Positions 28,262 to 45,962 of a stretch of DNA of 49,725 bases are shown here, in pieces (position 1 is the first letter of the stretch; each line of letters opens with the position of its first letter). The DNA is taken from the IMG/VR virus record IMGVR_UViG_3300022187_000044, positions 1 through 49,725 of that record; one strand, written 5' to 3'. A program made the position numbers and the translations under genes. The notes beneath the pieces are model-generated. The model saw nothing but the letters and a program-made list of their open reading frames with translations. It was not told where the DNA came from and did no database searches. The DNA is from a virus.

Positions 28262-28480
28262 TTACTTTAAAACATTTAACTCTCTTTGAAAATAATTATG
28301 TAAGTCTCCCATCTTTGACTTACCGTTACGGAGGATTGTTTTGATTACGTCTCTCTCATCAAGAGGGAATATTTCATCCACCATATCCTCCGGTAACATA
28401 CTAAACTCTGTAACGATTTCATTGTTACGTGTAAGAAGCACTTTAAAACTTACTAAGTTAGCTTCACTTTTATTAACCAT
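28262..28480 (-). CDS. Small protein of unknown function (72 aa)
   Basis: The start is placed at 28480 because GGAGAG lies 6-7 bases upstream within the end of nrdB; a longer in-frame start at 28501 has no such site. The product is mixed alpha/beta and acidic (MVNKSEANLVSFKVLL, EDMVDEIFPLDE). It is the last gene of the leftward operon, overlaps nrdB by 8 bases, and abuts the convergent plus-strand gene with no spacer. Not recognised. Confidence 0.65.
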   Translation of the reverse strand: MVNKSEANLVSFKVLLTRNNEIVTEFSMLPEDMVDEIFPLDERDVIKTILRNGKSKMGDLHNYFQRELNVLK

Positions 28481-29456: not shown

Positions 29457-29632
29457 TTGTTTTCCTCGTTAAATCTTTTAACTAAATATTTTAAATTTTC
29501 AATTACGTATCCTGCGTAATCTTTTGTTTTTGCGAATGGATTATTATTTTCATCACAATAATCTAACCACATCCTACTTGTAAAGCCAGAAAACTTCTGA
29601 CTAAACACCTTGTCAAATTCTGATTGTTTCAT
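29453..29632 (-). CDS. Small protein between nrdA and nrdB (59 aa)
   Basis: The product begins MKQSEFDKVFSQKF and includes FTSRMWLDYCDENNNPFAKT and a helical end. Its TGA overlaps the nrdB ATG (ATGA), so it is co-translated with nrdB. One cysteine and no metal motif are seen. Not recognised. Its placement suggests a role linked to nucleotide reduction, or merely compact packing. Confidence 0.65.
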   Translation of the reverse strand: MKQSEFDKVFSQKFSGFTSRMWLDYCDENNNPFAKTKDYAGYVIENLKYLVKRFNEENK

Positions 29633-29633
29633 A

Positions 29634-29777
29634 TTAATCCTTTGGTAAATAAACTATTACAGCAGAGTTACATTTAGGACAACTTAAATTAGTTTCCATA
29701 ATGTATTCATCGTTCTCATCTTCTATGTCGTGATCTCCACCCCATATTAATCTTGTTCCACAATGCCAACAATCCAT
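29634..29777 (-). CDS. Zinc-ribbon miniprotein (47 aa) next to nrdA
   Basis: This tiny protein has two CxxC pairs, CWHCG (residues 3-6) and CPKC (33-36), separated by an acidic stretch, the layout of a zinc ribbon. The start follows the nrdA stop by one base and uses GAGGG inside the nrdA tail as Shine-Dalgarno. A zinc-binding regulator or small redox partner of the reductase is possible. No thioredoxin or glutaredoxin gene is visible in the window. Confidence 0.7.
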   Translation of the reverse strand: MDCWHCGTRLIWGGDHDIEDENDEYIMETNLSCPKCNSAVIVYLPKD

Positions 29778-29778
29778 A

Positions 29779-31674
29779 TCAACCCTCACAAGCTATACAC
29801 TCAGCATCATCTAATTTAATACGCTGAACTTTAGTGTTTACGTTTTCTGCATTACGAGCAGCATTAGTTCTAAAGTAATACAAAGATTTAAGTTTGTTCA
29901 TCCCATACCAATGCACATCATTAACATACTGCATATACTCATCGTGTACTTCTTGTGGCTCTGTAGCTGTAGGTATAGTAAAGAAAAGATTAACTGATTG
30001 TGCTTGACAAATAAACTCTTGTCGTTTAGCAGCGTGTTCTATAATCCATATCTGATCTATCTCATTAGCAGTCTTGAATATTTCTTTTTCATCATCTGTA
30101 AGAATATCAAGGTGCTGTACTGAACCCTCGTTACCTGCAATGTCTTTCCATAAAGCAGTAAGCTCATCTTTCTTTAATCCTTTATCCTTTAGAATTTCTT
30201 CTAGGTATTTGTTCTTAACTTGGAACGAGCCTGAGAGAGTTTTGTGCGTATAAACATTAGCCCTGTATGGCTCAATCGAAGGAGATGTCCCACCACATAT
30301 GATACTAGAAGAAGCATTAGGAGCAACAGCGAGTAGATGAGCATTACGCCTACCACTACCACTGACATCAGGTGACTCACCACGTTCATCAGCAAGTCGT
30401 TCAGTTGCTCTAAGCGAATGTCTCTTAATGTGTTTAAATGCTTTGTAATTAAAGCCCGTAGCGAAGATACCCTCAAAAGGAATGCTGCGTGATTGGAGAT
30501 ACGAATGGAATCCCATCGCACCCAAACCCAACGACCTTTCTCGATAAGCTGAGTAGGCAGATTTAAGAAACCCTTCTTTGCCCGGCTTAATATGTTTTTG
30601 AAACCTTTTAAAATTTGCATTATATTCTCCTAAATTATCTGTGTCAACAGCGTTATCAATGTAATGTTGAAGAACGTTGTCAAGCATGGTTATTAAATCA
30701 TCTATAAACATAGGGTTCTCACTCCATTCATCAAAGTATTCTAAGTTTACAGAAGATAAACAACACACTGCTGTTCGTTCTTCATTCGTAGGTAAAGTAA
30801 TCTCAGAACATAGATTGCTCTGTTTGATTTCTAATCCTAAATCTTTTTGTTCTTTAGGCAATGCTTCGTTACATGTGTCTATATTAATCATGTATGGCTC
30901 ACCTGTCTCTGCTCTTGCATTGATGATCTGCCACCACAAGTCTCTAGCATTTACAATCTTTGTAGGCTCGTGAGTCTTAGGGTCAATCAATCTAAAGTCT
31001 GCATCTTCTTGTACAGCTTTAAGAAACTCATTGGTAAGGTTGATACCGTTATGAAGATTAAGATTCTTCCTGTTGATATCACCACCAGATTCTTTACGCA
31101 TGTTAATAAACTCTTCAATCTCCGGATGAGATATGTCCATGTATGCAGCATAAGAACCACGTCTTGTAGTGCCTTGGTTAAAGGCTAACATCTGAGAATC
31201 AACTACATGCATGAAAGGAATTGAACCAGTAGACTTACTACCGTGAGTAGTAGAAATACCATTACTCCTAATATCTCCCCAAAATCCACCAATACCTCCA
31301 CCCGAACTTGCCAACCAAATATTCTCGTCATAGTGAGCAGATAAACCATCCCTGCTATCAGGTACATAATTGAGGAAACAGCTAATAGGAAGACCACGAC
31401 TTGTTCCCCCGTTACTAAGTATAGGAGTGCTAAACATGAACCAACAAGAGGAACTGTAGTGATAAAGTCTTTGAGCCAACTCAAAATCTGTGTGACCTTT
31501 GTAGGTTGCTCCGAAGACTGATGCTCTGGCAAACGCTTCTTGTGCATGTGTTTCATTCTCCCATAAGTATCTATCCTTAAGTGTGTCAAGGCTAAACTTA
31601 TCTAATAGTTTTTCATTGCTATAATTAATCTTTATACCAAGATATTCCTTGATACCTACTTTATCATCTACCAC
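29779..31674 (-). CDS. nrdA: Ribonucleotide reductase, class I alpha subunit
   Basis: The 631-residue catalytic subunit carries the active-site Cys99 (GLPISCFLNY), Cys289 and Glu291 (NLCSEITLP), Cys305 (TAVCCLSSVNL), the radical-transfer pair Tyr599/Tyr600 (LKSLYYFRTN) and the C-terminal CxxC (CIACEG) that is re-reduced by a redoxin. The N-terminal ATP cone that senses dATP in cellular enzymes is missing, so the enzyme should resist dATP shutdown. The start is a GTG at 31674 after GGAGAGAGCAA. It overlaps the preceding gene by 7 bases. Confidence 0.95.
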   Translation of the reverse strand: MVDDKVGIKEYLGIKINYSNEKLLDKFSLDTLKDRYLWENETHAQEAFARASVFGATYKGHTDFELAQRLYHYSSSCWFMFSTPILSNGGTSRGLPISCFLNYVPDSRDGLSAHYDENIWLASSGGGIGGFWGDIRSNGISTTHGSKSTGSIPFMHVVDSQMLAFNQGTTRRGSYAAYMDISHPEIEEFINMRKESGGDINRKNLNLHNGINLTNEFLKAVQEDADFRLIDPKTHEPTKIVNARDLWWQIINARAETGEPYMINIDTCNEALPKEQKDLGLEIKQSNLCSEITLPTNEERTAVCCLSSVNLEYFDEWSENPMFIDDLITMLDNVLQHYIDNAVDTDNLGEYNANFKRFQKHIKPGKEGFLKSAYSAYRERSLGLGAMGFHSYLQSRSIPFEGIFATGFNYKAFKHIKRHSLRATERLADERGESPDVSGSGRRNAHLLAVAPNASSSIICGGTSPSIEPYRANVYTHKTLSGSFQVKNKYLEEILKDKGLKKDELTALWKDIAGNEGSVQHLDILTDDEKEIFKTANEIDQIWIIEHAAKRQEFICQAQSVNLFFTIPTATEPQEVHDEYMQYVNDVHWYGMNKLKSLYYFRTNAARNAENVNTKVQRIKLDDAECIACEG

Positions 31675-31961
31675 TTGCTCTCTCCTGTTTTAAAGAACTT
31701 ATCTCTATCATCGTGTATATCAAGCATTATTATACCATAATGTAATATTTTTAGCAAGTCTTTTCTGTTATGTCCATCTTTATTTCCATAACGTTTTGCA
31801 TACTTTATAATGTTACCCATACAAAAACCCATACCATGTCCTGAGTCAATGATAACATCAGTAGCTTGGTACTTATCAGAAGCATAGTGCTCACCATATG
31901 TACCATCAATGTAAGCCTTTAGTTCTTGTATTAATTCATCTTCATTAAATTTATAGTTCAT
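31668..31961 (-). CDS. DUF3310-like protein
   Basis: The start is chosen at 31961 (MNYKFNEDE) because GGAG lies just upstream; the longer frame runs back into the endonuclease gene. The 97-residue protein shows the DUF3310 pattern 'GFCMGNIIKYAKRYGNKDGH' and RKDLLKILHYGIIMLD. This family is widespread in phage nucleotide and replication operons and has no established function. It overlaps endonuclease I by 11 bases and nrdA by 7. Confidence 0.75.
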   Translation of the reverse strand: MNYKFNEDELIQELKAYIDGTYGEHYASDKYQATDVIIDSGHGMGFCMGNIIKYAKRYGNKDGHNRKDLLKILHYGIIMLDIHDDRDKFFKTGESKW

Positions 31962-32397
31962 CGTTTCTCCAATCATCAGGTAAAGTATCTTCACTGTACC
32001 ATCTGAAGTTATTTGTTTCAGCCCATTCAGCATGGGTTCTTTTGGTTCCGTTCTTTCTCATCTTAGCTCCCGGCATAGGAGCAAATGGTTTTTGAAATAA
32101 GAATACTAACTCGTAATCTTCTACCATTTCTGTAAAAGATTCTCGTATCCATATATACTTACTGTATTCAGCATAATCCCAGAATCTTCCTTTTGCTTCT
32201 AGTAATATTATTTTACCATCAATAGTCTTTACAAAGTCTGGCTCGTAAGTATGCTGTACTACATAGTCAAGCTTATCCCAGTGATGTTTCCAATCTTGTA
32301 AAATTGTTTGATGTATATTATATTCCCAAGTACTATCATATCCTTTTGGTACGTTAGTTTTTTTAGGTCTAGGTTTTCTTGGTACTCTTCTAGGCAT
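31951..32397 (-). CDS. Endonuclease I (Holliday junction resolvase)
   Basis: The 148-residue enzyme matches T7 gp3. The PD-(D/E)XK active site is visible as Glu25 (STWEYNIHQ), Asp54 (YEPDF), Glu67 and Lys69 (LLEAKG), with the downstream IWIRE helix and a closing 'FRWYSEDTLPDDW'. It resolves branched DNA and, in T7, helps degrade host DNA. The basic N-terminus (MPRRVPRKPRPKK) should contact DNA. RBS GGAGACTTAA lies in the preceding gene. Confidence 0.88.
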   Translation of the reverse strand: MPRRVPRKPRPKKTNVPKGYDSTWEYNIHQTILQDWKHHWDKLDYVVQHTYEPDFVKTIDGKIILLEAKGRFWDYAEYSKYIWIRESFTEMVEDYELVFLFQKPFAPMPGAKMRKNGTKRTHAEWAETNNFRWYSEDTLPDDWRNDEL

Positions 32398-32638
32398 TTA
32401 AGTCTCCGAGTGTCATATTAGGATTACGTTTTACTTGTTTGTAAAACCACCTTAAACTATAAGCACTCAATAGAAACTTGTTGTTAGCAAAGATGTGAGT
32501 CTGTTCTGGCAAGAACTCATTAAGATTCTTTCTATTAATCTTCGATGTATCCTCTCCATCTGGAACCATAGTTCTTAACCACTCAATGAGTAGGTCTTCT
32601 GCTCTTCGTCTAAGTTGTTTGGCTTTTGTTGAACGCAT
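32390..32638 (-). CDS. Conserved replication-cluster protein (82 aa)
   Basis: The small basic helical protein contains KQLRRRAEDLLIEWLRTMVP and 'SAYSLRWFYKQVKRNP'. I recall similar proteins beside the Cas4-like nuclease in other marine phages, without assigned function. It overlaps the nuclease by 29 bases and endonuclease I by 8, with GAGGTAACAG as RBS. Confidence 0.6.
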   Translation of the reverse strand: MRSTKAKQLRRRAEDLLIEWLRTMVPDGEDTSKINRKNLNEFLPEQTHIFANNKFLLSAYSLRWFYKQVKRNPNMTLGDLNA

Positions 32639-33527
32639 CTGTTACCTCTATAACGTTAGGGATTTTAGGTGACTTTGTTAAGTACCTATATCCATTTGAA
32701 TATTTAAATACACGTAAACCTTTACCCTCGTTAGAATCTTTATGGCATTCAAACTTGTGTCGGCAATAAGTACACTCTCTAGGTAGCTGCATGTTACCAG
32801 ACTTACCATCGGGAACAGGACTATAACATAGTTCTGGTGGTGTTGCTAACTTAACAGCTTTCTTTATATCAGTGATCTTCTTCTTGATATTAGGCTTGTC
32901 AAAGTTATCAGGTCTATACAAAGCTAACTCACCTGACTCTTTATTAAGAGCAAGGAAACCACCTTTGTCTGTGCCCTGTGCTTGTTCATACCCAGCAAGT
33001 TGAGCCATATATCCAAACATATCATTCTCTGCTAGTGTACCATCTTTAAACTTCTTAAAGGCATAACCAGAAGCTGTCTTGATATCTACTACCTCACCAT
33101 CAATAACACAATCCATGTGTCCTTTGATACCAGATACTTTGATTTCTTTTTGTTCATCGGTAACATCATGTCCAGATAGCTTGATCAGAAATATAACTAT
33201 CTCTTCAAGTAAATGTCCATATAAAAACTTAATGAATAAAGAAGGTGGCATCCTCTCCGGAGTACCTTCTGACTTCATATCAAACCAAAGTTGTCGTGAC
33301 TTCCTACCTATGTTAGACATACGTAAGGTTGCATCACCTCTTGGTTCAGGATGAGACCACTTGTAAAGTATCTCTTTCATAGACTCACCAAACTGTTCAA
33401 TGCTGTCTGGGTCTAGATCAATGTGCTCACCATCAGCAAGTACACCTATCTTATTATATATATCTTCGACTAATGTGTCAAGGGTTTTTGTTTTATTTTT
33501 AGAAATTAAATTCGCCTTGTTTGGCAT
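32610..33527 (-). CDS. Cas4/RecB-like PD-(D/E)XK nuclease
   Basis: The 305-residue nuclease has GHLLEE (residues 104-109), Asp139 (GHMDCVID), and Asp148 with Lys150 (VVDIKTAS), followed by Gln176 (MAQLAGYEQ), the canonical RecB-family order. Four cysteines at 234, 252, 255 and 261 could hold an iron-sulfur cluster as in Cas4/AddB, although the usual Cys before LWF (about 80) is replaced. It probably takes the place of T7 gp6 exonuclease in processing DNA ends. RBS GGAGGTAGCTA. Confidence 0.85.
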   Translation of the reverse strand: MPNKANLISKNKTKTLDTLVEDIYNKIGVLADGEHIDLDPDSIEQFGESMKEILYKWSHPEPRGDATLRMSNIGRKSRQLWFDMKSEGTPERMPPSLFIKFLYGHLLEEIVIFLIKLSGHDVTDEQKEIKVSGIKGHMDCVIDGEVVDIKTASGYAFKKFKDGTLAENDMFGYMAQLAGYEQAQGTDKGGFLALNKESGELALYRPDNFDKPNIKKKITDIKKAVKLATPPELCYSPVPDGKSGNMQLPRECTYCRHKFECHKDSNEGKGLRVFKYSNGYRYLTKSPKIPNVIEVTDAFNKSQTT

Positions 33528-33906
33528 TAGCTACCTCCTGTATAATAGTTTTATTTTTTCTAACGTGTGGCATGTAATCTCGTTCTTCCCATGTTTTAAT
33601 ACTGTGACAGTTTTGACAACGTACTTCACACTTTCTTATTTCATTAAACAAATCTTTAATATACTGTCTATTTTTTATTTTATCAGTAGGGGTAATACGA
33701 CATACTAAAGTGCTCATATTGGCTCCACTTTTAGCAGCATCTAATAATATTGTTTTATCTTCTCTTACTTTATGGTCAAAGCAAAGTGCTTTTGGATGTT
33801 TATTGTAACCACAATCTATACATCCTTTACTAAGTTTATATTTATTAATCCGTCTGTATCTATTATCACGAAGATATTTTCTGTATTCATCACTAGTGAG
33901 TGTCAC
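33499..33906 (-). CDS. HNH endonuclease
   Basis: The 135-residue protein has CxxC (29/32), the HNH-type Asp44-His45 (LCFDHKV), and 'CEVRCQNCHSIKTWEER' (Cys97/Cys100/His101), a zinc-stabilised HNH fold. The start is GTG at 33906, 8 bases after AGGAGG. It overlaps both neighbours (28 bases with the nuclease, 14 with DNA polymerase), so it is fitted into the operon. A free-standing homing endonuclease and a dedicated replication/packaging nickase are both possible. Confidence 0.82.
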   Translation of the reverse strand: MTLTSDEYRKYLRDNRYRRINKYKLSKGCIDCGYNKHPKALCFDHKVREDKTILLDAAKSGANMSTLVCRITPTDKIKNRQYIKDLFNEIRKCEVRCQNCHSIKTWEERDYMPHVRKNKTIIQEVANAKQGEFNF

Positions 33907-35623
33907 TCCAATTACCTCCTACTTTATATTCGCCATCCATTGGACAGCGTAGATTAAAATGTTCACCTGCTTCTATAATACTTTTTACTGCTAACTCTCC
34001 AACAAAATCTGCTTGAGATTCTTTGACTTCTATCTGCCATTCATCGTGGATGTTAGCAACAAATCTATAATCAATTGTATTAAGTCTTAACAAACTATCT
34101 AAGTTGACTAATGCTTTCTTCATTAAGATTGCACCTGCTCCTTGAAGTAGTGTGTTCAAAGCTGAGTGTTTGTTTCTTATGTATAGCTTCCTACCATCTA
34201 ATCCTTTGAGGTAATTTTTTGAAGCTGCTCTGTCAACTCGTTCCTTAAGAGACTTGTATGTTGGGAGACTACTAAGAAAGCGTTCTCGCAACTTCTTACC
34301 TTCTGCTCTGCTTCCTTTAATGATGCTTCCAATCTTCTCATCTCCTGCTCCGTAAACGAGTGCGTAGATGAAAGTTTTAGCCTGATCTCTTGATTTAAGT
34401 CCAGCAAAGTTTTTGTTAGTCGTGTGAATGTCTCCATTAATAATTTCATTTATGTACTCCTTATCATCCATGTAATGTGCTAACATGCGTAGCTCTAATC
34501 CACTTGCATCTACACCTACAAGCTTATGTCCTTCTGGTACAGTCCAACAGGCTCGACATTCTTTACCATAAGGACTATGAACAGAGGGAACTTGTGCAAC
34601 ATTAGGATTTCTATGTGTCATTCTTCCGGTGATAGTACCGTTGGGAATAACAAAACCGTGTATTCTACCATCATCCTTGACAGCTTCTACCCACGAATCA
34701 ATCTGAGCTATACGCTTTTGCAGTAATAAAAAATCTGCTATAAGTTTTGCTTCATGGATATGGGTTATCTTAGATAATGTTTTTTCATCTACAATAGGTT
34801 GACCAGTAGGTGTAAATCTATCTGGCTTCCAACCAAAGTCTATAAGATATTCTCCAATCTGTTTACGAGAACCAAGATTAAACTCTTGTAAAGTTTGTCG
34901 CATAAAAGGATTGAAGTTGTTGGTATCTAAACAACGTTGATATTCTTCATCAGTCATACCACGCTTAGATAGATTGCCATCTTTCTTGATGTAGGGTGTG
35001 ACCTCTTTTGTGTCTACCCATTTAGGTTTAAACGTTTCATGTACTTCTTCTTCTATCAGTTGTTTCTTTTCTCTAAGCTCTGCTAACAAACTTAATGCTG
35101 ATTGCATATCAAAAGCAAAACCATCTTGCTCTTGTTGTTTCATAATCTTAGCAATGCCTTGTTCAATATCAATTGACTGAGGTGAAAAACCTTTTGATTC
35201 TTTGCGAAGTTCTTGTAGTACTCTAGTGTTTAACTGTACATCCCGTACACAATAGTTTAACATATCAGTAGAGTAATTAAGATAATCTTCAAACTCAATC
35301 TTAGGATAGCCTAACTTGTATCCCCAAGTCTCAAGGCTGTGACCACCATCACGTGTTGGATTAAATAGTCTGGATAAAACTAAAGTGTCAATAAGTTTTT
35401 TATCACTAAGCTTTACTCCTCCAAACTTTTCCACAACTGGAATATCAAATCCAATAATGTTATGACCAATTAGCCTATCTGCTGTGGTAAGAAACTGATA
35501 CCCTTCTTCTAACTTATTAGGTGGGAACTTAAATATCTCACCTGAGTCAGGATTCTGGGCAACAATACACCATACCTTTGTGGCATGAATATCATCTGTT
35601 TCTATATCAAATACTAAATCCAT
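33893..35623 (-). CDS. DNA polymerase, family A (T7-like)
   Basis: The 576-residue replicative polymerase has a proofreading exonuclease domain (Asp6/Glu8 in FDIETD, Asp about 60 in IIGFDIP, Asp about 128 in YCVRDVQ). The polymerase domain shows motif A (GVDASGLELR), motif B (RDQAKTFIYALVYGAG) and motif C (IHDEWQ). The residue equal to E. coli Phe762 is Tyr (about 420), as in T7, associated with fast lytic replication. It is compact like T7 gp5, but no phage thioredoxin gene is seen. It shares one base with the primase-helicase stop. Confidence 0.95.
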   Translation of the reverse strand: MDLVFDIETDDIHATKVWCIVAQNPDSGEIFKFPPNKLEEGYQFLTTADRLIGHNIIGFDIPVVEKFGGVKLSDKKLIDTLVLSRLFNPTRDGGHSLETWGYKLGYPKIEFEDYLNYSTDMLNYCVRDVQLNTRVLQELRKESKGFSPQSIDIEQGIAKIMKQQEQDGFAFDMQSALSLLAELREKKQLIEEEVHETFKPKWVDTKEVTPYIKKDGNLSKRGMTDEEYQRCLDTNNFNPFMRQTLQEFNLGSRKQIGEYLIDFGWKPDRFTPTGQPIVDEKTLSKITHIHEAKLIADFLLLQKRIAQIDSWVEAVKDDGRIHGFVIPNGTITGRMTHRNPNVAQVPSVHSPYGKECRACWTVPEGHKLVGVDASGLELRMLAHYMDDKEYINEIINGDIHTTNKNFAGLKSRDQAKTFIYALVYGAGDEKIGSIIKGSRAEGKKLRERFLSSLPTYKSLKERVDRAASKNYLKGLDGRKLYIRNKHSALNTLLQGAGAILMKKALVNLDSLLRLNTIDYRFVANIHDEWQIEVKESQADFVGELAVKSIIEAGEHFNLRCPMDGEYKVGGNWSDTH

Positions 35624-37293
35624 TAAAAGCCTTCATCCCCAGAGTTATCAAACTCTATATCTTCGTTAGTTAATTCAGATAGTCTACCAGTTTCTGCATC
35701 ATAGATAACTCTAGCTGCCATACCTACATCACCTGTGTATCTTGATTTAAGTACACGTAGTCTTGTAGTCCTAGCTTCATCGGGGTCGTCTGATTGTTGA
35801 TTACGTTCTAATGCAATAACACAATCGGATAGTTGACCAATACTATTAGAGCCACGTAGATGAGAGAGACTTACTTCAATACCATTCTCGTGTCCTTTGT
35901 TTCCATCGACACGTCTGAGATGTGATACAAGTATAATCCCTGCACCAGTCTCTTCAACTAAACTTCTAAGTCTAGTCATAATAGAATCAATGGCTCGTCT
36001 CTCATCACCTTCATGTACTGCACTGACTAACATATGTAAATGATCTACGACCACCCACTTACAGTCACATCCAATAATCATAAAGCGAAGCTTAGTAAAG
36101 ATATCATCAATGTCGTTGGTGCCAAAGTGTGAGTGAACCCATACTCTGTTTTTATTCTCACCATCGTACAAGATGTCAAACATCTTATCAAGTTCTTCTT
36201 TAGAAAACTTCTCACGTTCTTGGTCAATGTATAACCTAGCGTTAGCTTCAATAGAAAGTATACCATCAATGGTACGTCTCCAATCTTCTTCTAATGCTAT
36301 GATACCTACGTTGTCTTGTGTTTGTTTCACAAGCCAATGCTCTAGTTCTCTGGTTACACTAGACTTACCAAGTCCTGTTCCACCTGTAAGAGTTACAAGC
36401 TCACCTTGTCTCAAGCCATACAGCTTTTTGTTGAGTCCTTCATAAGGATAAGGTATGCTTTGTTTCTTCTCACGATTGTGAAACTTCTCACGTTGCTCTG
36501 TAACATTGATAACACCGGATGGTGTATAAACTTTAGCAGACCACCAAGCTTCAACGAAATCCTTATGTCTATTAGACTTAAGCATATCGTTAGGGTCTTT
36601 AAACCCATTGGGAAGTGTGAGTATCCTAGCCTTTCCGGGCTTGAAAAGTCTTGCAACTTTTACTGCTGCATCCTTTCCTGCTTTATCATTATCAAAAGCA
36701 ACGATCACGTTTTCAAAGTTATCAAAGAACTCCAAGCTCTCCTTGATATCTCTTACTGCACCTTGTGCTCCACGCTTGATGGATACCACAGCCCACTTAC
36801 TACCAAGTAGTTCGTAAGCTGCCATAGCATCACACTCCCCTTCGGTTATGGTGACGTACTTGCCACCCTTAAACAATTGCTGACCAAACAATCCGGTGTC
36901 ATTGTAACTACCTTGTACAAAGAAATCTTTAGTAACAGAATTTCTGCACTTGGTAGCTGATAGTTCATGTCCATTGTAGTATGGATAGAAATGTTTAATG
37001 ACCTGACCCTTAAGGTCTTGAACAGCTTTAACCCCAAACTTCTGTGCAGTTGCTTGAGATATTTTTCTGTCAGTCAATGCAATGAAGTTACCTTCACTCA
37101 CATTGTCAGGTTGTTTAGGTTGAATTGTTTCTGTTTGTGTCATAGTTTTTCCGTTACATGCTTGTTCATAATTAGGCATAAATTCTCCACAACTAAAACA
37201 CTTTGCCGAACCATCTTCATTGATTCCTACAGCATCACTGCTTGGACAAAGTGGGCATGGTTGTTTCAACTTATCCCAAGTTTTCTCATTCAT
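35623..37293 (-). CDS. Primase-helicase (T7 gp4-like)
   Basis: The start is set at 37293 (MNEKTWDK) since AGGAGG stands 6 bases upstream; a GTG at 37308 would include that site. The 556-residue bifunctional protein has zinc cysteines 13/16/32/35 and Toprim residues Glu151 (ITEGECD) and Asp201/Asp203 (AFDNDKAG). Its RecA-like helicase domain has Walker A at about 304-311 (GGTGLGKSS), Walker B (WVVVDHLHM, about 417) and His459 (LVSHLRR). It unwinds the fork and primes the lagging strand. Confidence 0.95.
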   Translation of the reverse strand: MNEKTWDKLKQPCPLCPSSDAVGINEDGSAKCFSCGEFMPNYEQACNGKTMTQTETIQPKQPDNVSEGNFIALTDRKISQATAQKFGVKAVQDLKGQVIKHFYPYYNGHELSATKCRNSVTKDFFVQGSYNDTGLFGQQLFKGGKYVTITEGECDAMAAYELLGSKWAVVSIKRGAQGAVRDIKESLEFFDNFENVIVAFDNDKAGKDAAVKVARLFKPGKARILTLPNGFKDPNDMLKSNRHKDFVEAWWSAKVYTPSGVINVTEQREKFHNREKKQSIPYPYEGLNKKLYGLRQGELVTLTGGTGLGKSSVTRELEHWLVKQTQDNVGIIALEEDWRRTIDGILSIEANARLYIDQEREKFSKEELDKMFDILYDGENKNRVWVHSHFGTNDIDDIFTKLRFMIIGCDCKWVVVDHLHMLVSAVHEGDERRAIDSIMTRLRSLVEETGAGIILVSHLRRVDGNKGHENGIEVSLSHLRGSNSIGQLSDCVIALERNQQSDDPDEARTTRLRVLKSRYTGDVGMAARVIYDAETGRLSELTNEDIEFDNSGDEGF

Positions 37294-37311
37294 GTTAGCC
37301 CTCCTCACAGA

Positions 37312-37608
37312 CTATGTTTCTTTTTTTACTTTCGATTCATCCTCGATAGTTTCTGGGTCATCGCCAACGAACTGCCCCTTATCATTTCTGGCACGTTCTG
37401 TTTCAACGATTGCTTCGTCTCTATCTTTGAGCAACTCTTCTAAGTTGGCTCGATGTGTACGACTTGCAAAGTCTAAAGCTTCTATGATAACTTGTAAGTT
37501 ACCAACTTTCTGTACTATAACAGTAGCTTCTTGCTTTACTCCATCATCGTTGATGTTATTAACATCATATGAAGTTGTCCCATCATCATTATTAATAGTA
37601 ATAATCAT
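37312..37608 (-). CDS. Protein of unknown function between SSB and primase (98 aa)
   Basis: Beta-strand-like N-terminus (MIITINNDDGTTSYDVNNIN) with a central helix containing 'VIIEALDFASRTHRANLEEL' and a very acidic C-terminus. It starts directly after the SSB stop (TAAATG). The acidic tail could interact with replication proteins. Not recognised. Confidence 0.65.
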   Translation of the reverse strand: MIITINNDDGTTSYDVNNINDDGVKQEATVIVQKVGNLQVIIEALDFASRTHRANLEELLKDRDEAIVETERARNDKGQFVGDDPETIEDESKVKKET

Positions 37609-38022
37609 TTAGAATTCCTCGTTATCTGATTCACCTTCGACATACTCTACCAAGTTCTCAACCTTTACAGCCATAAGTTCAGCGAACTGACCATAATCAT
37701 TCTTGTAAGGTTTGATCTTGACAACAACTTCTGAACCATTACCTACGCTAACATCTAGATCAGCACCATCATTGTCAACAAGTTTAGGTGCAGCATTTGC
37801 AGTACCATCATTTCTTGTGGCTCTCTTACTGAAAGTAAATGCCGGTTCATCATACTTAGGCTGTCCTGATCTGTCTCTAACTTGATTAAGACCTATGCCT
37901 TCAAGTTTAGATGCAGTCTCAGGGTCTGTAAGAACAGTCAACCCATACTTGTGAGGTTGGAACCTCGTGTTTGGCGATGTGATATTAGCCCACATTGCCT
38001 TACCTTTTACATACTCATACAT
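37609..38022 (-). CDS. Single-stranded DNA-binding protein (gp2.5-like)
   Basis: The start is at 38022 because GGAGGA precedes that ATG by 6 bases; an upstream in-frame ATG would consume the site. The 137-residue protein opens MYEYVKGKAMWANITSP, shows an OB-fold-like strand pattern ('HKYGLTVLTDPETASKLEGI', VVKIKPYKNDYGQ) and ends in an acidic tail with terminal Phe (EGESDNEEF). That tail is the hallmark of T7 gp2.5 and bacterial SSB. It coats single strands and recruits polymerase and helicase. It is the first gene after the strong promoter at 38058. Confidence 0.82.
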   Translation of the reverse strand: MYEYVKGKAMWANITSPNTRFQPHKYGLTVLTDPETASKLEGIGLNQVRDRSGQPKYDEPAFTFSKRATRNDGTANAAPKLVDNDGADLDVSVGNGSEVVVKIKPYKNDYGQFAELMAVKVENLVEYVEGESDNEEF

Positions 38023-38057
38023 ATTATTTCCTCCATCGGTTTGTATTAAGTGCACAC

Positions 38058-38086
38058 ATTATATCATACTTTTGTATGAAAGTAAA
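38058..38086 (-). promoter_or_regulatory. Sigma70 promoter for replication operon, with operator-like palindrome
   Basis: TTTACT, 17 bases, TATAAT. The spacer contains the perfect dyad TCATAC-AAAA-GTATGA (plus-strand 38064-38079), well placed for a repressor to block RNA polymerase. The predicted start is near 38051, leaving a leader of about 30 bases with a strong RBS. Confidence 0.82.
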
Positions 38087-38094
38087 GTGTTTGG

Positions 38095-38140
38095 TTAAAA
38101 AAGTTAAGCCGGTTTTAGAGTGGCACAAGACCGGAAACTT
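38095..38140 (-). terminator. Terminator upstream of the replication operon
   Basis: Reading leftward, AAGTTTCCGGT pairs with ACCGGCTTAACTT around a 16-base loop (arms 38130-38140 and 38101-38113), followed by TTTTAA. It would insulate the early gene at 38197 from the replication operon. A TATAAT at 38147-38152 just upstream may be part of a second weak promoter. Confidence 0.55.
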
Positions 38141-38196
38141 GTAAATATTATAAGTTAAATAAAGGAGGGCAAAACTTCTTATAATATACCTTCGTA

Positions 38197-38397
38197 TTAA
38201 TCCCTAATAGCAGTGAGTATCTCTTCCCAAAATGTTAATGGAGTATCGTTAAGTCTTACCTTAAAGGTATCGTCTAACTTCTCCACCACATGCCCTACAT
38301 TTGGATAGTGTTCCGTCATATACAATCCAAACTTCCTATACTCATCACGAGTAAGTATCTCTGTATTGTATTGATCTCTTTCTGCTAAGTAGTTCAT
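38197..38397 (-). CDS. Early small protein (66 aa), unknown
   Basis: The product begins MNYLAERDQYNTEILTRDEY and is acidic and helical with a mixed C-terminus. The promoter at 38412 predicts a transcript start only about 8 bases before the ATG, and no Shine-Dalgarno is present, so it would be read from a nearly leaderless mRNA. It stands alone between a promoter and a terminator. Not recognised. Confidence 0.6.
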   Translation of the reverse strand: MNYLAERDQYNTEILTRDEYRKFGLYMTEHYPNVGHVVEKLDDTFKVRLNDTPLTFWEEILTAIRD

Positions 38398-38411
38398 CTT
38401 AATAAGCGTGT

Positions 38412-38440
38412 ATTATAACACAAGTTACTATAAAAAGCAA
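38412..38440 (-). promoter_or_regulatory. Sigma70 promoter for 38197-38397
   Basis: TTGCTT, 17 bases, TATAAT on the minus strand. The -10 is embedded in a small dyad (GTGT-TATAAT-ACAC). The predicted start is near 38405. Confidence 0.75.
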
Positions 38441-38443
38441 CCC

Positions 38444-39133
38444 CTAAATGTTAATTGTGAACGGTAATGTACAACCTGTAATAGTTATAGGATTATCAAA
38501 CTCTAAATCCATTACATAATTAAGTGTAGCTTGTTTAACTTTGTTAGGTATCTTACCATCGTATTGAACATTAACTACATTACCATTAAATAAATCATAG
38601 ATCACTGTAAACTTTAATGTTCTTTTAATTATAATGTTTTCAATGTAATCACCATAAGGTTTAGCTGACTTAACCTTTGGACATACAACAGGTTCTGGCT
38701 CTGGCTCTGGCTCTGGTATTATCTCTGGCTGTCCTAATACTTGTGTACCTGTAAGAACACCTAGTCCGGCATTGACACCTAGCTCTTCAGTAGGTTCTGG
38801 CTCTACAATCTCTGGCTCAATTACTGACTGTGTATTTAAGCGTTCATCTAGATCATTTAAGATACGATAAATTTCTGCGTTAGTTTCTTCCATGTTATCT
38901 AATCTATTGGATAACTCAACCAAAGAATTACGATAGCTTTCTCTGGTAGACTGTATCAAGTCTGCATTTCTATTTACGCTTTCGAACTCTTCGCTGAGAG
39001 ACAGGAAAGATTTGTTTAACCTTGTAAGTCCTGCTTTGTTTTCAGATATGTTATCCACTGTGATGTTGACTGAGCTAACCATAGCAACCATCATTGCTAT
39101 CATTACTGCTCCAAATATTATTTTAAATTTCAT
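38444..39133 (-). CDS. Anchored periplasmic protein with TonB-like C-terminus
   Basis: The 229-residue protein has an N-terminal membrane anchor or uncleaved signal (about 4-22) and a coiled coil (about 30-100). A Glu-Pro linker (PEIVEPEPTEE, PEIIPEPEPEPEP, about 107-148) leads to a compact domain (about 151-229) with Cys151 and Cys221. The layout and the strand-turn-strand-helix pattern ('RTLKFTVIYDLFNGNVVNVQ', then KIPNKVKQATLNYVMDLEF) recall the TonB C-terminal domain, which contacts outer-membrane receptors. The similarity is at pattern level only. RBS AGGAGGTAGCATAAA. Confidence 0.6.
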   Translation of the reverse strand: MKFKIIFGAVMIAMMVAMVSSVNITVDNISENKAGLTRLNKSFLSLSEEFESVNRNADLIQSTRESYRNSLVELSNRLDNMEETNAEIYRILNDLDERLNTQSVIEPEIVEPEPTEELGVNAGLGVLTGTQVLGQPEIIPEPEPEPEPVVCPKVKSAKPYGDYIENIIIKRTLKFTVIYDLFNGNVVNVQYDGKIPNKVKQATLNYVMDLEFDNPITITGCTLPFTINI

Positions 39134-39134
39134 T

Positions 39135-39632
39135 TTATGCTACCTCCTGTGTAGTCCACCATGTAGGTTTAGCTCTGTTCTGTTCCCACTTGGCATAGTG
39201 TTTTTCATTTATTACATATCTACGATACGCAACGATTGGGTCTTTGTGTTTATACTCCTCCGGCATAGCCTGTGCTAATGGTGTCATATCACCAATGTTT
39301 ATATTAAGTGGTAGTTGCATAAGAGGTGTTGATAGTTTATCAAAACTTAAATGCGATCTACCATATCTGTGACTGTACTCAATGGACAAGGCGATGAAGT
39401 GCCGATACAACCATTGATAGTTAGAACTAGATTCTCTTGCCCAGATAGTGCAAGGATGATTCTTGTATGCAGCTTTGTAAAGTCCTTGCTTGTCTGCCCA
39501 CTCATCACCATCCAGTTCTCTATGTGCTGTGCATAACATCTGTGCTGTTTCCAGTGGCATCTTGACTAGCATCTTATCTGGCTGTGCTAGTGCTGATTCA
39601 ACTGGACATTCATTAAAATAAAATATGTTCAT
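39135..39632 (-). CDS. Conserved phage protein of unknown function (165 aa)
   Basis: The protein shows MLVKMPLETAQMLCTAHREL, 'NHPCTIWARESSSNYQWLYR', EYSHRYGRSHLS and DPIVAYRRYVINEKHYAKW. This pattern recurs in many T4-like, cyanophage and marine phage early regions, as I recall, without a proven function. It is rich in His, Trp and Tyr, which suggests nucleic-acid or nucleotide binding. It overlaps the upstream gene's stop by one base. Confidence 0.65.
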   Translation of the reverse strand: MNIFYFNECPVESALAQPDKMLVKMPLETAQMLCTAHRELDGDEWADKQGLYKAAYKNHPCTIWARESSSNYQWLYRHFIALSIEYSHRYGRSHLSFDKLSTPLMQLPLNINIGDMTPLAQAMPEEYKHKDPIVAYRRYVINEKHYAKWEQNRAKPTWWTTQEVA

Positions 39633-39826
39633 TAAGCTTCTCCAATTAAAACAACTTCACCATGTAGTTCATATCCACTTTGTCCTGTGTTAGCTACATC
39701 AATTCTATCTATCCAATAATTTTCTAAATTGTAATCATCACTAAAAGGTTTATTCTCTAACACTCTAACAAATAAACTTTTATCTTTAATATTTTGTAAA
39801 GTATCTATTAAATCTTGTACTGTCAT
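39632..39826 (-). CDS. Early small protein (64 aa), unknown
   Basis: Begins MTVQDLIDTLQNIKDKSLFV and ends HGEVVLIGEA, an alpha/beta miniprotein. The ATG follows the neighbour's TAA immediately (TAAATG), with GAGG 9 bases upstream. Short proteins of the 'LI..L......V' type are frequent in phage early regions. Confidence 0.6.
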   Translation of the reverse strand: MTVQDLIDTLQNIKDKSLFVRVLENKPFSDDYNLENYWIDRIDVANTGQSGYELHGEVVLIGEA

Positions 39827-40015
39827 TTACTCATCCTCAATTTGAAATGCTTCATTAAGATGATACAGTAAGTCTGCTAGTGCATGTACCTCTTGGATAT
39901 CTATCCCACCATACTCAAACAAACTATTAGTACCTTGTTTAGCTTTACGATAGTTATTTTTTATCCATGTTAAATTTCTTTCTTGAAGTTTAACTGTTAT
40001 TATTTTCTCTTTCAT
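39827..40015 (-). CDS. Early small protein (62 aa), unknown
   Basis: Begins MKEKIITVKLQERNLTWIKN and ends acidic (LNEAFQIEDE), mixed alpha/beta. The start overlaps the TGA of the preceding 49-residue gene (ATGA). Not recognised. Confidence 0.6.
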   Translation of the reverse strand: MKEKIITVKLQERNLTWIKNNYRKAKQGTNSLFEYGGIDIQEVHALADLLYHLNEAFQIEDE

Positions 40016-40161
40016 TTACCTTGCCCTCTATATTTTTTTAAGTTGGCTTTCTTATTCTTGTTCATAGTAGAGGTGCCAACGTTACCTCTACCTTGACTTG
40101 TCTTCTTACCCCTGCCTTGTGTAGCAGAAGTATATGTACTCTTAGTCCATGTCTTCGCCAT
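40012..40161 (-). CDS. Small basic Lys/Gly/Thr-rich protein (49 aa)
   Basis: Begins MAKTWTKSTYTSATQGRGKK and stays strongly basic to the end (KKANLKKYRGQGK), with no acidic residue. It is probably disordered until bound to nucleic acid. It overlaps the upstream gene by 20 bases and the downstream ATG by ATGA, supporting real translation. Confidence 0.6.
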   Translation of the reverse strand: MAKTWTKSTYTSATQGRGKKTSQGRGNVGTSTMNKNKKANLKKYRGQGK

Positions 40162-40354
40162 ACCTATTCTCCTCTATCGTTGCTCTGCGTTTGTCTCTGT
40201 ACTCTGTAACCCTTCGACCATCAGCATAGTCAACTGTTTGTTTATACCATAACCCATCTTTGTATCTGGTGTCAATAGCTATGATTTGTTTAGCTTGTTT
40301 TTCTAATTCAAGTATCTCTCTTTGCTGTTCAACAGCTTCATAAAACTCAGTCAT
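40142..40354 (-). CDS. Early small helical protein (70 aa)
   Basis: Glu/Gln-rich N-terminal helix (FYEAVEQQREILELEKQAKQ), a short strand pair (KDGLWYKQTVDYADGRRV) and a charged end. RBS GGAGCACTACACT. Its ATG overlaps the stop of a 25-codon reading frame. Not recognised. Confidence 0.6.
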   Translation of the reverse strand: MTEFYEAVEQQREILELEKQAKQIIAIDTRYKDGLWYKQTVDYADGRRVTEYRDKRRATIEENRYGEDMD

Positions 40355-40428
40355 AGTGTAGTGCTCCTAATCATAAACCCCAACCAAAAACCAAAACACA
40401 TTCCTGTAAAAAACATTTTATGTATCAT
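40351..40428 (-). CDS. Possible 25-residue membrane peptide
   Basis: MIHKMFFTGMCFGFWLGFMI plus five residues forms a single hydrophobic helix. It overlaps the upstream gene by 11 bases and the downstream ATG by ATGA, and a GGAGAAAG motif lies upstream. The coupling argues for translation; the short length leaves doubt. Confidence 0.45.
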   Translation of the reverse strand: MIHKMFFTGMCFGFWLGFMIRSTTL

Positions 40429-40630
40429 CTTTTTCTTTCTCCTTTTTATTTTTAATTTTCATTAACTCATCCCACTTATAAAACTTCTTAGTCTCTGCAT
40501 CCCAGAAATTACCACGCTGTACATGTGAAGGAACATGTGGTTTAACTTTATCTTCATCAAGTAAATGCATGTATAAACTTGTCATTGCTATCAGTAAAAC
40601 AAACCCGACCACTACCAATATTATTTCCAT
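40418..40630 (-). CDS. Small single-span membrane protein (70 aa)
   Basis: N-terminal membrane helix (EIILVVVGFVLLIAMTSLYM) and a basic/acidic cytoplasmic tail with 'VQRGNFWDAETKKFYKWDEL'. RBS TATAGGAGATAGAGT. Early phage membrane miniproteins often alter host envelope functions or block superinfection, but nothing specific shows here. Confidence 0.6.
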   Translation of the reverse strand: MEIILVVVGFVLLIAMTSLYMHLLDEDKVKPHVPSHVQRGNFWDAETKKFYKWDELMKIKNKKEKEKDDT

Positions 40631-40640
40631 ACTCTATCTC

Positions 40641-40886
40641 CTATATAGATTTTTCAAAGTTACTACTACTTGTAATACTTTTAAACTTAACACCCAATAA
40701 CTTATGTATCCGATCCTCAAACAAACTCACTTGATTCATTATCTCAGCTTGTTCACGTGGTGTAGCGTTTGCAAATCCCTTATCCATATGAACCTCTGGA
40801 CTATCAAACAAACCCATCAAGTAATCAGACACTTGGTGTTTAGCATACACTTTTGGTGTGACTTTTTTATTATTATATTCTATCAT
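40641..40886 (-). CDS. Early small protein (81 aa), unknown
   Basis: Begins MIEYNNKKVTPKVYAKHQVS and has a helical centre with EQAEIMNQVSLFEDRIHKLL. RBS GGAGGATAGTA. It is the first gene after the promoter at 40978. The leader contains the palindrome CTTTATAAAG (40897-40906), also found in the control region. Not recognised. Confidence 0.6.
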   Translation of the reverse strand: MIEYNNKKVTPKVYAKHQVSDYLMGLFDSPEVHMDKGFANATPREQAEIMNQVSLFEDRIHKLLGVKFKSITSSSNFEKSI

Positions 40887-40977: not shown

Positions 40978-41006
40978 ATTATATCACAAAAATAAACAGA
41001 AGTCAA
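40978..41006 (-). promoter_or_regulatory. Near-consensus sigma70 early promoter
   Basis: TTGACT, 17 bases, TATAAT on the minus strand. The predicted start near 40971 gives an AT-rich leader of about 85 bases. A TGTGAC element (41022-41027) lies 16 bases upstream of the -35, as at two other leftward promoters. Confidence 0.85.
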
Positions 41007-41012
41007 ATTGTG

Positions 41013-41081
41013 TTACGAATCTGTGACATACAGTAAAATAAATAAAAATATTAGTATGATTGGTAAAAAATATATACTCAT
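41013..41081 (-). CDS. Possible 22-residue membrane peptide
   Basis: MSIYFLPIILIFLFILLYVT plus two residues, an almost pure membrane helix, preceded by AGGAG four bases before the ATG. It lies alone between a weak terminator and the 40978 promoter. It could be a toxin-like or envelope-acting micropeptide, or chance in AT-rich DNA. Confidence 0.3.
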   Translation of the reverse strand: MSIYFLPIILIFLFILLYVTDS

Positions 41082-41722: not shown

Positions 41723-41826
41723 ATCATCCTCCTTTTTAAAATTGGTGCTAGTTTTACAGGTCTAGCAACTGTGTCCTTCCTTACTCGGACAAATTTGTAG
41801 TTAGTGTATGGTGGTATAGTTCTCAT
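41719..41826 (-). CDS. Possible basic miniprotein (35 aa)
   Basis: MRTIPPYTNYKFVRVRKDTV continuing basic to KRRMI. Its TGA overlaps the next ATG (ATGA), and its last codons provide the neighbour's Shine-Dalgarno. It may be a coupling leader peptide rather than a functional protein. Confidence 0.45.
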   Translation of the reverse strand: MRTIPPYTNYKFVRVRKDTVARPVKLAPILKRRMI

Positions 41827-41921
41827 TTACTTTTATCCTTAACACGCACTTCAGACATATAAGACCAGTGGGATTTTACAAAGGCTCACTCCTAACTACA
41901 AAACATATCCTATCATATCAA

Positions 41922-41950
41922 TGTGTCATTTGTGTGACATCATTGTGACA
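41922..41950. repeat. TGTGACA direct repeats, 11-bp spacing (3 units)
   Basis: TGTGT at 41922, TGTGA at 41933 and TGTGA at 41944 stand exactly 11 bp apart in the 136-base gap between two minus-strand genes. On the minus strand a possible promoter (ATGTCA, 17 bases, TATGAT) overlaps them. They match the arrays at 44734 and 44861. Confidence 0.7.
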
Positions 41951-41962
41951 GTTCTGCAATAT

Positions 41963-42707: not shown

Positions 42708-43418
42708 TTACGCTAATTGTATTACATTAATTACAAAGCCGGATGTATCTTGCCTAGCTTTGCCCTTTGCTTTCAGACCAACCACGCTATTTGGTTCGTC
42801 TAGAAATCTCATATCGTGGGTATCCCCATCAATAACTTTTAGTCCTTTGAACATACTCGGTAGTACTTTATTCTTGAACACTACTGCTTTGTTGTTCGGT
42901 ACTTTGTCAAACATCTTGGCATACTTGTCATTGGCTTCACTGTAGCTCCATGTCAAGTGATAGTTCGGTATATGATCTATCTTCCTCGTGGGTATCTTGG
43001 TATAGTCATAAAACTGTACCTCTGGGAACATGGCAAAGATGTTTTCATATCCATCAATCTCTATGTACTCCCATTGTATATCACTAGTCCCATTTAATCT
43101 TATCGCTGGTCGCTTGTCCTTACGCTGACAAGCTCGGATGAATGTATTGATATCCTTGACTAGCTGTTGCATAAATTCGTCTCTATCGTTTAAGAATAGA
43201 TCGGTTTTCTTTTGCCTAGCCTTTTGGATACTTGGATACACTCCACCAAGTCCAGCAGTATTTAAACAAGCATCCTTGCACTTGGCTATGTCTTGATATG
43301 GACATATCTTGGTGCTGATTGGTCTAAGGTGCATAATGCAAGACCAATATTTTTCTGATACTTTATTACTCTTATCAATTTTTGGATTAGAGTTTACGCT
43401 TAATAATTTATATCCCAT
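42708..43418 (-). CDS. GP88-like conserved phage protein
   Basis: The 236-residue protein opens MGYKLLSVNSNPKIDKSNKV and carries Cys-rich 'SCIMHLRPISTKICPYQDIA' with KCKDACLNTAGLGG, then 'RKDKRPAIRLNGTSDIQWEY' and 'TWSYSEANDKYAKMFDKVPN'. The Cys cluster and the RLNGTSD motif match, to my recollection, the phage 'gene product 88' family of unknown function. The four clustered cysteines suggest a metal or Fe-S site. RBS AAGGAGGAACT. It is the largest protein of the early block. Confidence 0.65.
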   Translation of the reverse strand: MGYKLLSVNSNPKIDKSNKVSEKYWSCIMHLRPISTKICPYQDIAKCKDACLNTAGLGGVYPSIQKARQKKTDLFLNDRDEFMQQLVKDINTFIRACQRKDKRPAIRLNGTSDIQWEYIEIDGYENIFAMFPEVQFYDYTKIPTRKIDHIPNYHLTWSYSEANDKYAKMFDKVPNNKAVVFKNKVLPSMFKGLKVIDGDTHDMRFLDEPNSVVGLKAKGKARQDTSGFVINVIQLA

Positions 43419-44373: not shown

Positions 44374-44664
44374 TTATGAAGCTATTCTGTAATGCTTTAA
44401 AATCGTTGCTGGATTTCTGCAAATATTATGACTATCAAAATAGTTGTAATACTCTTTTGAAATCCCCTTTTCACTTTTACCAATTGCTGTAAGTTTAATT
44501 TCCTTATCAGCACTATTATAAAATGAAGCTCTTTTTACTTTATTACGCTGGTTTTGAGTTAACCCTTCAGCTCTCTCACCTGTACGCCTATCAATATAGC
44601 GATATTGTAGCCTTCCAGATTCCCAGCAAGTAAAGGCTTCATAATTATCTTTATTAAAAGACAT
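44374..44664 (-). CDS. First leftward early gene (96 aa), unknown
   Basis: MSFNKDNYEAFTCWESGRLQ opens a small basic protein with 'YRYIDRRTGERAEGLTQNQR' and 'KEIKLTAIGKSEKGISKEYY', ending in a basic helix. It is the first gene left of the control region, so it should be among the earliest made. The basic charge suggests nucleic-acid binding. RBS AAAAGGTGCATT. Not recognised. Confidence 0.6.
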   Translation of the reverse strand: MSFNKDNYEAFTCWESGRLQYRYIDRRTGERAEGLTQNQRNKVKRASFYNSADKEIKLTAIGKSEKGISKEYYNYFDSHNICRNPATILKHYRIAS

Positions 44665-44713: not shown

Positions 44714-44741
44714 AATCTAAGTTACAGATCAATTGTGACAA
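44714..44741 (-). promoter_or_regulatory. Leftward early promoter candidate
   Basis: TTGTCA, 16 bases, TAGATT on the minus strand. The -35 overlaps the first TGTGACA unit and the rest of the array lies directly upstream, suggesting the repeats control this promoter. It is weak against consensus. Confidence 0.45.
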
Positions 44742-44798
44742 TTGTGTGACAGTTATGTGAACTTTATGTGAACTATTGTGACAATTATGTGACATACT
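44734..44798. repeat. Six TGTGA direct repeats in helical phase
   Basis: TGTGA begins at 44734, 44745, 44756, 44767, 44777 and 44788, with steps of 11, 11, 11, 10 and 11. The consensus unit is TGTGACAATTA. All copies point the same way, so a protein binding each one would line one face of the helix. Confidence 0.9.
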
Positions 44799-44809
44799 AT
44801 ATAAATAAC

Positions 44810-44825
44810 TTATAAAGCTTTATAA
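44810..44825. repeat. 16-bp palindrome TTATAAAGCTTTATAA, copy 1
   Basis: This perfect palindrome, identical to 45122-45137, lies between the two TGTGA arrays. Shorter relatives (CTTTATAAAG) are at 45001, 45169 and, outside the region, 40897. Confidence 0.85.
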
Positions 44826-44860
44826 AGTTTATGAATATATGGATTTCCATACAGCATCAA

Positions 44861-44898
44861 TGTGACAATCGTGTGACAAGACTGTGACAATATTGTGA
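44861..44898. repeat. Second TGTGA array (four units, 11-bp steps)
   Basis: TGTGA begins at 44861, 44872, 44883 and 44894, exactly 11 bp apart and in the same orientation as the first array. Confidence 0.88.
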
Positions 44899-45121
44899 AA
44901 TATATAGGCTTCTCAGAATGCCCTGTATGAAGTTTATTTGATTTTTAGATGCTGTGGTATTGGTTAAGCATTGGGAAGCTTAGAATGGATATGGTGAAAC
45001 CTTTATAAAGTAGACTTATAATATATTATATTTATAAGACTTTATAAGGGGCGTGAATGATATAAACTAGATAAATTTTAAAAGCTTGTAAAATTTTACA
45101 GATCACTAACATATAAAAACT

Positions 45122-45137
45122 TTATAAAGCTTTATAA
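45122..45137. repeat. 16-bp palindrome TTATAAAGCTTTATAA, copy 2
   Basis: The exact second copy lies 312 bp from the first and is followed by further TTATAA and CTTTATAAAG elements to 45179. Confidence 0.85.
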
Positions 45138-45197
45138 GTGCAGTGAATAATTTGTGAAGCTTATAACACTTTATAAAGTGGGCTTATGTTTCTGATA

Positions 45198-45536: not shown

Positions 45537-45962
45537 ATGGCAACCAATTATTTAGCTGAAACAAAAGACAGGAATCTTACTGAAAAGCAGGAAGCGTTCT
45601 TGGGTCACCTCGTAGATACAGGAGGAGACTTTAAAAAGTCAGCCGAACTTGCAGGTTACTCCGGCAATCACTATCAAGTACTAAAAAGTTTAAAAGAGGA
45701 AGTAGTAGATTTAGCCCAAAACGTACTTGCAAGGGAAGCCCCTACAGCAGCGTTCAAGATTATAGAGGTTTTGAAGTCGGATAAGCCGATACCACAAGCC
45801 AACTATAAGCTACAAGCTGCACAAACTATACTAGATCGTGTAGGGGTTAGTAAGACAGATAGAATAGATGTTAATCATAATACCGGTGGTGGTATATTTA
45901 TTCTCCCAGAGAAAAAGGCGATTGACATTACAGAAGGTGACTATGAAGATATTTCTGACTGA
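45537..45962 (+). CDS. Terminase small subunit-like protein
   Basis: The 141-residue protein has an N-terminal helix-turn-helix ('LTEKQEAFLGHLVDTGGDFK', then SAELAGYSGNHYQVLKSL), a helical middle and an acidic C-terminus (DITEGDYEDISD). This is the usual TerS plan, in which a DNA-binding ring marks the packaging site and hands DNA to TerL. It leads the operon that ends with terL. There is no Shine-Dalgarno, and the promoter predicts a leaderless mRNA. Confidence 0.75.
   Translation: MATNYLAETKDRNLTEKQEAFLGHLVDTGGDFKKSAELAGYSGNHYQVLKSLKEEVVDLAQNVLAREAPTAAFKIIEVLKSDKPIPQANYKLQAAQTILDRVGVSKTDRIDVNHNTGGGIFILPEKKAIDITEGDYEDISD

Follow-up and report, generated by a model that had tools for sequence, protein, structure and literature searches.

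Genome Context of the Repeat Arrays

The DNA analysed here, hereafter the window, is the IMG/VR virus record IMGVR_UViG_3300022187_000044, a stretch of 49,725 nt with 36% G+C. Rightward structural genes extend to ~28 kb of the window, and a leftward block holds the replication-side genes. The gap between this block and a further set of rightward genes, which begins with the terminase gene terS, contains two of the three repeat arrays described below. The genes to which the text refers are as follows.

28.5 to 44.7 kb, minus strand: leftward block, which contains the replication-side genes and many small open reading frames (ORFs)
28473..40886, minus strand: ribonucleotide reductase, endonuclease, Cas4-type exonuclease, DNA polymerase, primase-helicase and small ORFs, downstream in the leftward block
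42708..43418, minus strand: GP88-like gene (PF17338, phrog_1617), within the leftward region
44374..44664, minus strand: 96-aa ORF that opens the leftward region, on the downstream side of arrays 1 and 2
45537..45962, plus strand: terS (terminase small subunit), which begins the rightward genes

Sequence comparison assigns the phage to the HMO-2011 type. Its terS is 57% identical to those of HTVC103P and HTVC104P, both isolated on Candidatus Pelagibacter HTCC7211, and its DNA polymerase is 53–54% identical to the polymerases of HTVC103P, HTVC104P and HTVC115P. At the DNA level, the phage collection gave short, distant matches only. The window proteins examined include no phosphate gene and those scanned no response regulator, no integrase was seen in this phage, and the tRNA search returned no match. 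The 96-aa ORF matches no family; this first leftward ORF varies among relatives, and a basic motif like SKNAKRKAKRYG is kept in four of them (L478, L272, L277 and L083).

Repeat Arrays

Thirteen repeat units stand in three arrays, and a weaker single site lies further along the leftward region.

44734..44794, minus strand: array 1, six units (TGTGA on the plus strand at 44734, 44745, 44756, 44767, 44777 and 44788)
44861..44901, minus strand: array 2, four units (TGTGA on the plus strand at 44861, 44872, 44883 and 44894; steps of 11, 11 and 11 bp)
41923..41951, minus strand: array 3, three units, CTGTCAC-AATG-ATGTCAC-ACAA-ATGACAC
41012..41029, minus strand: weaker single PHO-like site ATGTCACAGATTCGTAAC, PhoB-matrix score 13.3, which includes a lone TGTGAC at 41022

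The original prediction had described arrays 1 and 2 as ten TGTGA units in one orientation, with 11-bp steps and one step of 10, and all of this was recovered on the plus strand, the steps of array 1 being 11, 11, 11, 10 and 11 bp. It had also listed three further units at 41922–41950; these belong to the same system, but just two of them are TGTGA (41933 and 41944), the first being TGTGTCA. The lone TGTGAC, likewise assigned to the system, is indeed part of the weaker PHO-like site. On the minus strand, array 1 reads TGTCACA-TAAT-TGTCACA-ATA-GTTCACA-TAAA-GTTCACA-TAAC-TGTCACA-CAAT-TGTCACA and array 2 reads TTTCACA-ATAT-TGTCACA-GTCT-TGTCACA-CGAT-TGTCACA; the units take the form (C/T)TGTCAC followed by four mostly A/T bases, in direct repeats of 7+4 bp.

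The arrays lie far above chance expectation. The longest chain of TGTGA with 10–12 bp steps has six units in the window and at most two in 1000 dinucleotide shuffles of the intergenic region, and a chain of any pentamer reached at most three in such shuffles, against the real six. TGTGA is rarer than expected in the window overall (72 vs 133 expected).

Similarity to the PHO Box

The PHO box is the operator of the response regulator PhoB. It consists of two 11-nt direct repeats, in each of which 7 bases are conserved and 4 are less so (PMC4415409), and has the consensus CTGTCAT-A(AT)A(TA)-CTGT(CA)A(CT) (PMC3465305). The array units have this same organization, being 11-bp direct repeats with 7 conserved and 4 less conserved positions. 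The window was scored with a PhoB matrix built solely from 43 distinct Escherichia coli ChIP sites (PMC3465305). The highest site of the entire 49.7-kb window falls in array 1 (44735–44752) and scores 20.1, compared with 19.7 for E. coli phoA and 20.9 for pstS; the second falls in array 3 (41934–41951; 19.2), and the third again in array 1 (44778–44795; 18.9), whereas the sites of array 2 score 16.4, 14.2 and 14.1. Nine of the ten highest sites lie within the three arrays, the sole exception being one in a coding region at 15290, with a score of 17.7. Sites scoring at least 14 number 9 in the window, against a mean of 0.83 and a maximum of 4 in 300 shuffles, and a single one is left when the arrays are masked. 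Since one shuffle of the 300 contained a site of 19.1, a single matrix site proves nothing, and it is the clustering that carries the argument.

Promoter Geometry

TGTNACA is almost palindromic, and therefore the direction of the arrays rests on the −10 elements and the downstream genes. The elements read from the sequence are as follows.

44719..44724, minus strand: −10-like hexamer TAACTT, 10 nt past the last 7-mer of array 1, with the ATG at 44664 ~55 bp further on
44846..44851, minus strand: −10-like hexamer TATGGA, 10 nt past the last 7-mer of array 2
41907..41912, minus strand: −10-like hexamer TAGGAT, 10 nt past array 3 (TATGAT in L296)
40978..41006, minus strand: consensus-like sigma-70 promoter TTGACT-17-TATAAT, a short way downstream of the 41012–41029 site

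All three arrays face leftward, and the gap from array to hexamer is exactly 10 nt in each case, the same as that between the last 7-mer and TATAGT in the E. coli phoA promoter, as checked in E. coli genomes. Each array is thus positioned as a box in place of a −35 element, about 10 nt from a −10-like hexamer and aimed at a gene, the hexamers of the window being weak. The first leftward ORF starts (44664) ~70 bp from the end of array 1, and a relative with two arrays (L083) has one of them ~70 bp before a gene start. Hexamers at offset 10 were found in further relatives, namely TAAATT (L024), TAGGGA (L033), TTAAAT (L285), TATGAT (L296), and TTTAAT together with CATAGT (L083), while the arrays of L051 and L478 have no −10 there. 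Across offsets 0–25, offset 10 gave the highest mean match to TATAAT, with offset 15 a close second, in a comparison of twelve partly non-independent arrays. In three other phages (L015, L038 and L478), a TTGAC-type −35 element occurs ~9–10 nt after TGTCACA arrays, which suggests that arrays may also lie upstream of complete promoters.

Conservation, Gain and Loss among Relatives

Relatives were collected by terS. Array 3, its −10 and the leader that follows are orthologous in five of them (L271, L272, L286, L296 and L478); L285 carries TGTTAC/TGTAAC units at this position with unchanged spacing, and in L298 and L332 the leader is present but the array is not. Arrays 1 and 2 are both present in four relatives (L270, L271, L275 and L276), and L297 has array 2; in these copies some bases differ and the spacing is kept. 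They are missing upstream of terS in L272, L273, L277, L278, L280, L281, L283–L285 and L287, which include relatives with terS 93–99% identical, and no such array was found in the examined parts of HTVC103P, HTVC115P and HTVC033P. The original prediction had named absence from close relatives as evidence against its reading; such absence is found for arrays 1 and 2, but not for array 3. This pattern of gain and loss of arrays 1 and 2 would fit a regulatory input, and not an essential origin.

The leader downstream of array 3 (window 41790–41906, minus strand) is itself conserved, with the form GTAGTTAGGAGTGAGCCTTTGTAAAATCC ... GTTAAGGATAAAAGTAAATGAG ... CTAACTACA, and also occurs in L272, L285, L286, L296, L298, L332 and L478, even where the array is missing. 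Pairing of its outer stem, TGTAGTTAG/CTAACTACA, is kept in L332 through two-sided changes at two pairs. Folding of the single sequence was not better than that of shuffles, and the Rfam search, in which the leader was included, gave no match. It is possibly an unknown cis-acting RNA.

The Same Repeat in Other Viruses and in Bacteria

A search of viral contigs for TGTGA-N6 in four copies gave 90 stretches, which together with the window form 66 DNA clusters. In the controls, the reversed pentamer AGTGT at 11 bp gave 61 matches and TGTGA at 12 bp at least 120. Spacer identity was below 0.6 in 21 of 75 TGTGA 11-bp arrays vs 4 of 53 AGTGT control arrays, and TGTCACA in three copies gave 52 matches vs 11 for the reversed word. 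A universal TGTGA-array protein was considered and rejected, as the genes flanking the four-copy arrays share no common family, the placement relative to genes is varied and the controls contain generic tandem repeats; for the last two reasons, TGTGA at 11 bp is not diagnostic by itself. In unrelated contigs, 11-bp TGTGA arrays fall within genes of the Phage_rep_org_N (L016), HTH_36 (L020) and DUF1376 (L080) families, and in L045 one overlaps an integrase gene at its 3′ end; such arrays may be initiator iterons or integrase arm sites.

In bacteria, a scan of ~85,000 species genomes for TGTCACA-N4 in three copies gave 89 stretches. The 34 genes that start within 350 bp in the TGTCACA direction include four of PstS type (L385, L391, L396 and L399, with L396 and L399 under the model's strict cut-off) and two PstC (L368 and L409); on the opposite side, the families shown for 36 genes include no PstS or PstC. 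The upstream regions of alphaproteobacterial pstS genes contain sites scoring up to 22.0 with the E. coli PhoB matrix, and of the 24 promoters tabulated, 10 have TA at offset 10. The boxes of the phage arrays therefore occur at alphaproteobacterial pst genes as well.

A Model of Host PhoB Control and Its Alternatives

The arrays are probably tandem PHO boxes, through which host PhoB would activate successive promoters of the leftward early/replication region. PhoB, the phosphate-starvation response regulator of the OmpR/PhoB family, would bind the boxes head to tail, and the boxes would replace the −35 element at a minimum of three leftward promoters, at about 44.85, 44.72 and 41.91 kb, with a weaker fourth site near 41.0 kb. 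In a phosphate-starved host, phosphorylated PhoB bound along an array would recruit sigma-70 RNA polymerase, acting as an activator rather than a repressor, and the leftward early/replication region would be turned on soon after entry of the phage DNA, presumably as one transcript that reaches the replication genes. The original prediction of helically phased sites for one protein at leftward promoters is borne out to this extent, that protein being probably a host one, and its suggestion of an early-promoter activator array gains support.

Should these promoters be under the control of host PhoB, the phosphate status of the host would set the outcome of an infection, and the array would serve as a simple sequence marker for comparison with phosphate maps and metatranscriptomes. 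Phages of the HMO-2011 type are reported to be both dominant and widespread in the ocean (PMC9038755). A bolder proposal, which we offer tentatively and regard as somewhat doubtful, is that this marine phage group couples the start of infection, and not an auxiliary gene, to the phosphate-starvation signal of the host via PHO boxes stacked on successive early promoters; relatives with and without arrays would then represent ecotypes of phosphate-poor and phosphate-rich water, respectively, and the many boxes present on DNA in replication could in addition titrate PhoB and blunt the host response.

OmpR/PhoB-family members bind 10–11-bp direct repeats head to tail. A different regulator of this family, encoded by host or phage, with PhoB-like specificity and a non-phosphate signal, would suit the arrays, and also the variation of the unit among relatives (TGTCAC, TGTTAC, TGTAAC). 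We consider it unlikely, however, given that the match to the PhoB matrix, the one matrix compared, equals that of phoA and pstS, that the same arrays stand upstream of bacterial pst genes, and that the scanned window proteins include no response regulator.

A replication origin, with the repeats as iterons bound by an initiator, was the other function that the original prediction had proposed. Arrays 1 and 2 do occupy an A+T-rich gap where the gene blocks diverge, at the minimum of the cumulative GC skew, and the array within the Phage_rep_org_N gene of the unrelated contig L016, made of TGTGACA at 11 bp, may provide a precedent. The turn of the skew falls at the coding-strand switch, however, and as the skew tracks gene direction it does not decide the matter. 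The PHO-box match, the fixed 10-nt spacing to the −10 hexamers, the presence of array 3 at an orthologous promoter 2.8 kb away and the loss of arrays 1 and 2 from relatives with near-identical terS all leave the origin function unsupported; nor did the scans, of 20 proteins against PHROGs and 10 against Pfam, give any initiator match, although several small ORFs had no match at all and may include an unknown initiator. An origin is therefore a very improbable explanation, and the PHO-box reading guards against taking phased direct repeats for an origin, an error easily made. Concerning DnaA, the array units do not match TTATNCACA; DnaA-box-like TGTGGATAA sites were observed upstream of terS in L280 (two, 11 bp apart) and L291, both of which have no arrays 1 and 2.

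Binding of the terminase for packaging is harder still to credit: a ring-shaped TerS, by its rotational symmetry, would suit phased direct repeats, and arrays 1 and 2 lie ~640–800 bp upstream of terS, but array 3 is 3.6 kb off beside another gene, the array of L051 has the reverse orientation relative to terS, and arrays 1 and 2 are missing from relatives with TerS 96–99% identical. Of the five CTTTATAAAG palindromes in the window, four fall in the gap, at 44818–45178; this cluster is a candidate origin or packaging element, and many relatives likewise show a concentration of CTTTATAA/TTATAAAG within 1 kb upstream of terS. A neutral or generic tandem repeat is about as implausible, for although viral contigs often carry tandem repeats of 11 and 12 bp, the core is kept while spacers diverge, TGTCACA exceeds its reversed word and the spacing is conserved in diverged relatives.

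Two other classes of site were rejected. The alphaproteobacterial LexA box is GTTC-N7-GTTC; this occurs once, within array 1, and in neither array 2 nor array 3. A CRP/FNR site is inconsistent with the arrays, which contain no TGTGA-N6-TCACA dyad; the units are direct, as the original prediction had already pointed out in setting them apart from such dyads.

Comparison with Known Systems

The closest likeness to the putative phage promoters is found in the PHO boxes of the pst/pho genes of E. coli and alphaproteobacteria, which share with them the 7+4-bp direct repeats, the sequence, the 10 nt to the −10, the replaced −35 and the tandem copies. The differences are that the boxes here are placed at phage early/replication-side promoters instead of phosphate-uptake genes, and that a phage array contains up to six units and includes one 10-bp step. 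Iterons of plasmids and phages, and the origin repeats of the lambda-O type, are likewise helically phased direct repeats; in contrast to these, the window arrays have no initiator found nearby, arrays 1 and 2 are not kept in relatives, and the geometry is that of promoters.

Host PhoB has been connected with phage genes in several systems. It binds the stx2 promoter of the prophage BP-933W (PMC3978041), a case of host PhoB at a phage promoter comparable to that predicted from sequence for the window phage; the former is a toxin promoter of a lambdoid prophage, whereas the latter lies among the leftward replication-side genes of a phage that showed no integrase. The pelagiphage HTVC027P raises the expression of host phoB and pst (PMC12753301). 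In cyanophages, host PhoB is reported to control pstS of P-SSM2, host PhoBR has also been linked to pstS of S-SM1, and host PhoB is reported to bind the gp43 and uvsX promoters of S-PM2d, a phage without pstS, although the authors caution that Pho-box predictions for phages are not always correct (PMC10976474). S-PM2d is a parallel in having no obvious phosphate genes and replication genes under host PhoB, which for the window phage is a proposal drawn from sequence. The cyanobacterial box, PyTTAAPyPy(T/A), differs from that of the window, which is of the CTGTCAY type, arranged in series along one leftward block and carried by an HMO-2011-type phage. Control of phage genes by host PhoB is already known in cyanophages; for HMO-2011-type phages, no report of PHO boxes or of host PhoB control was found in the literature searched.
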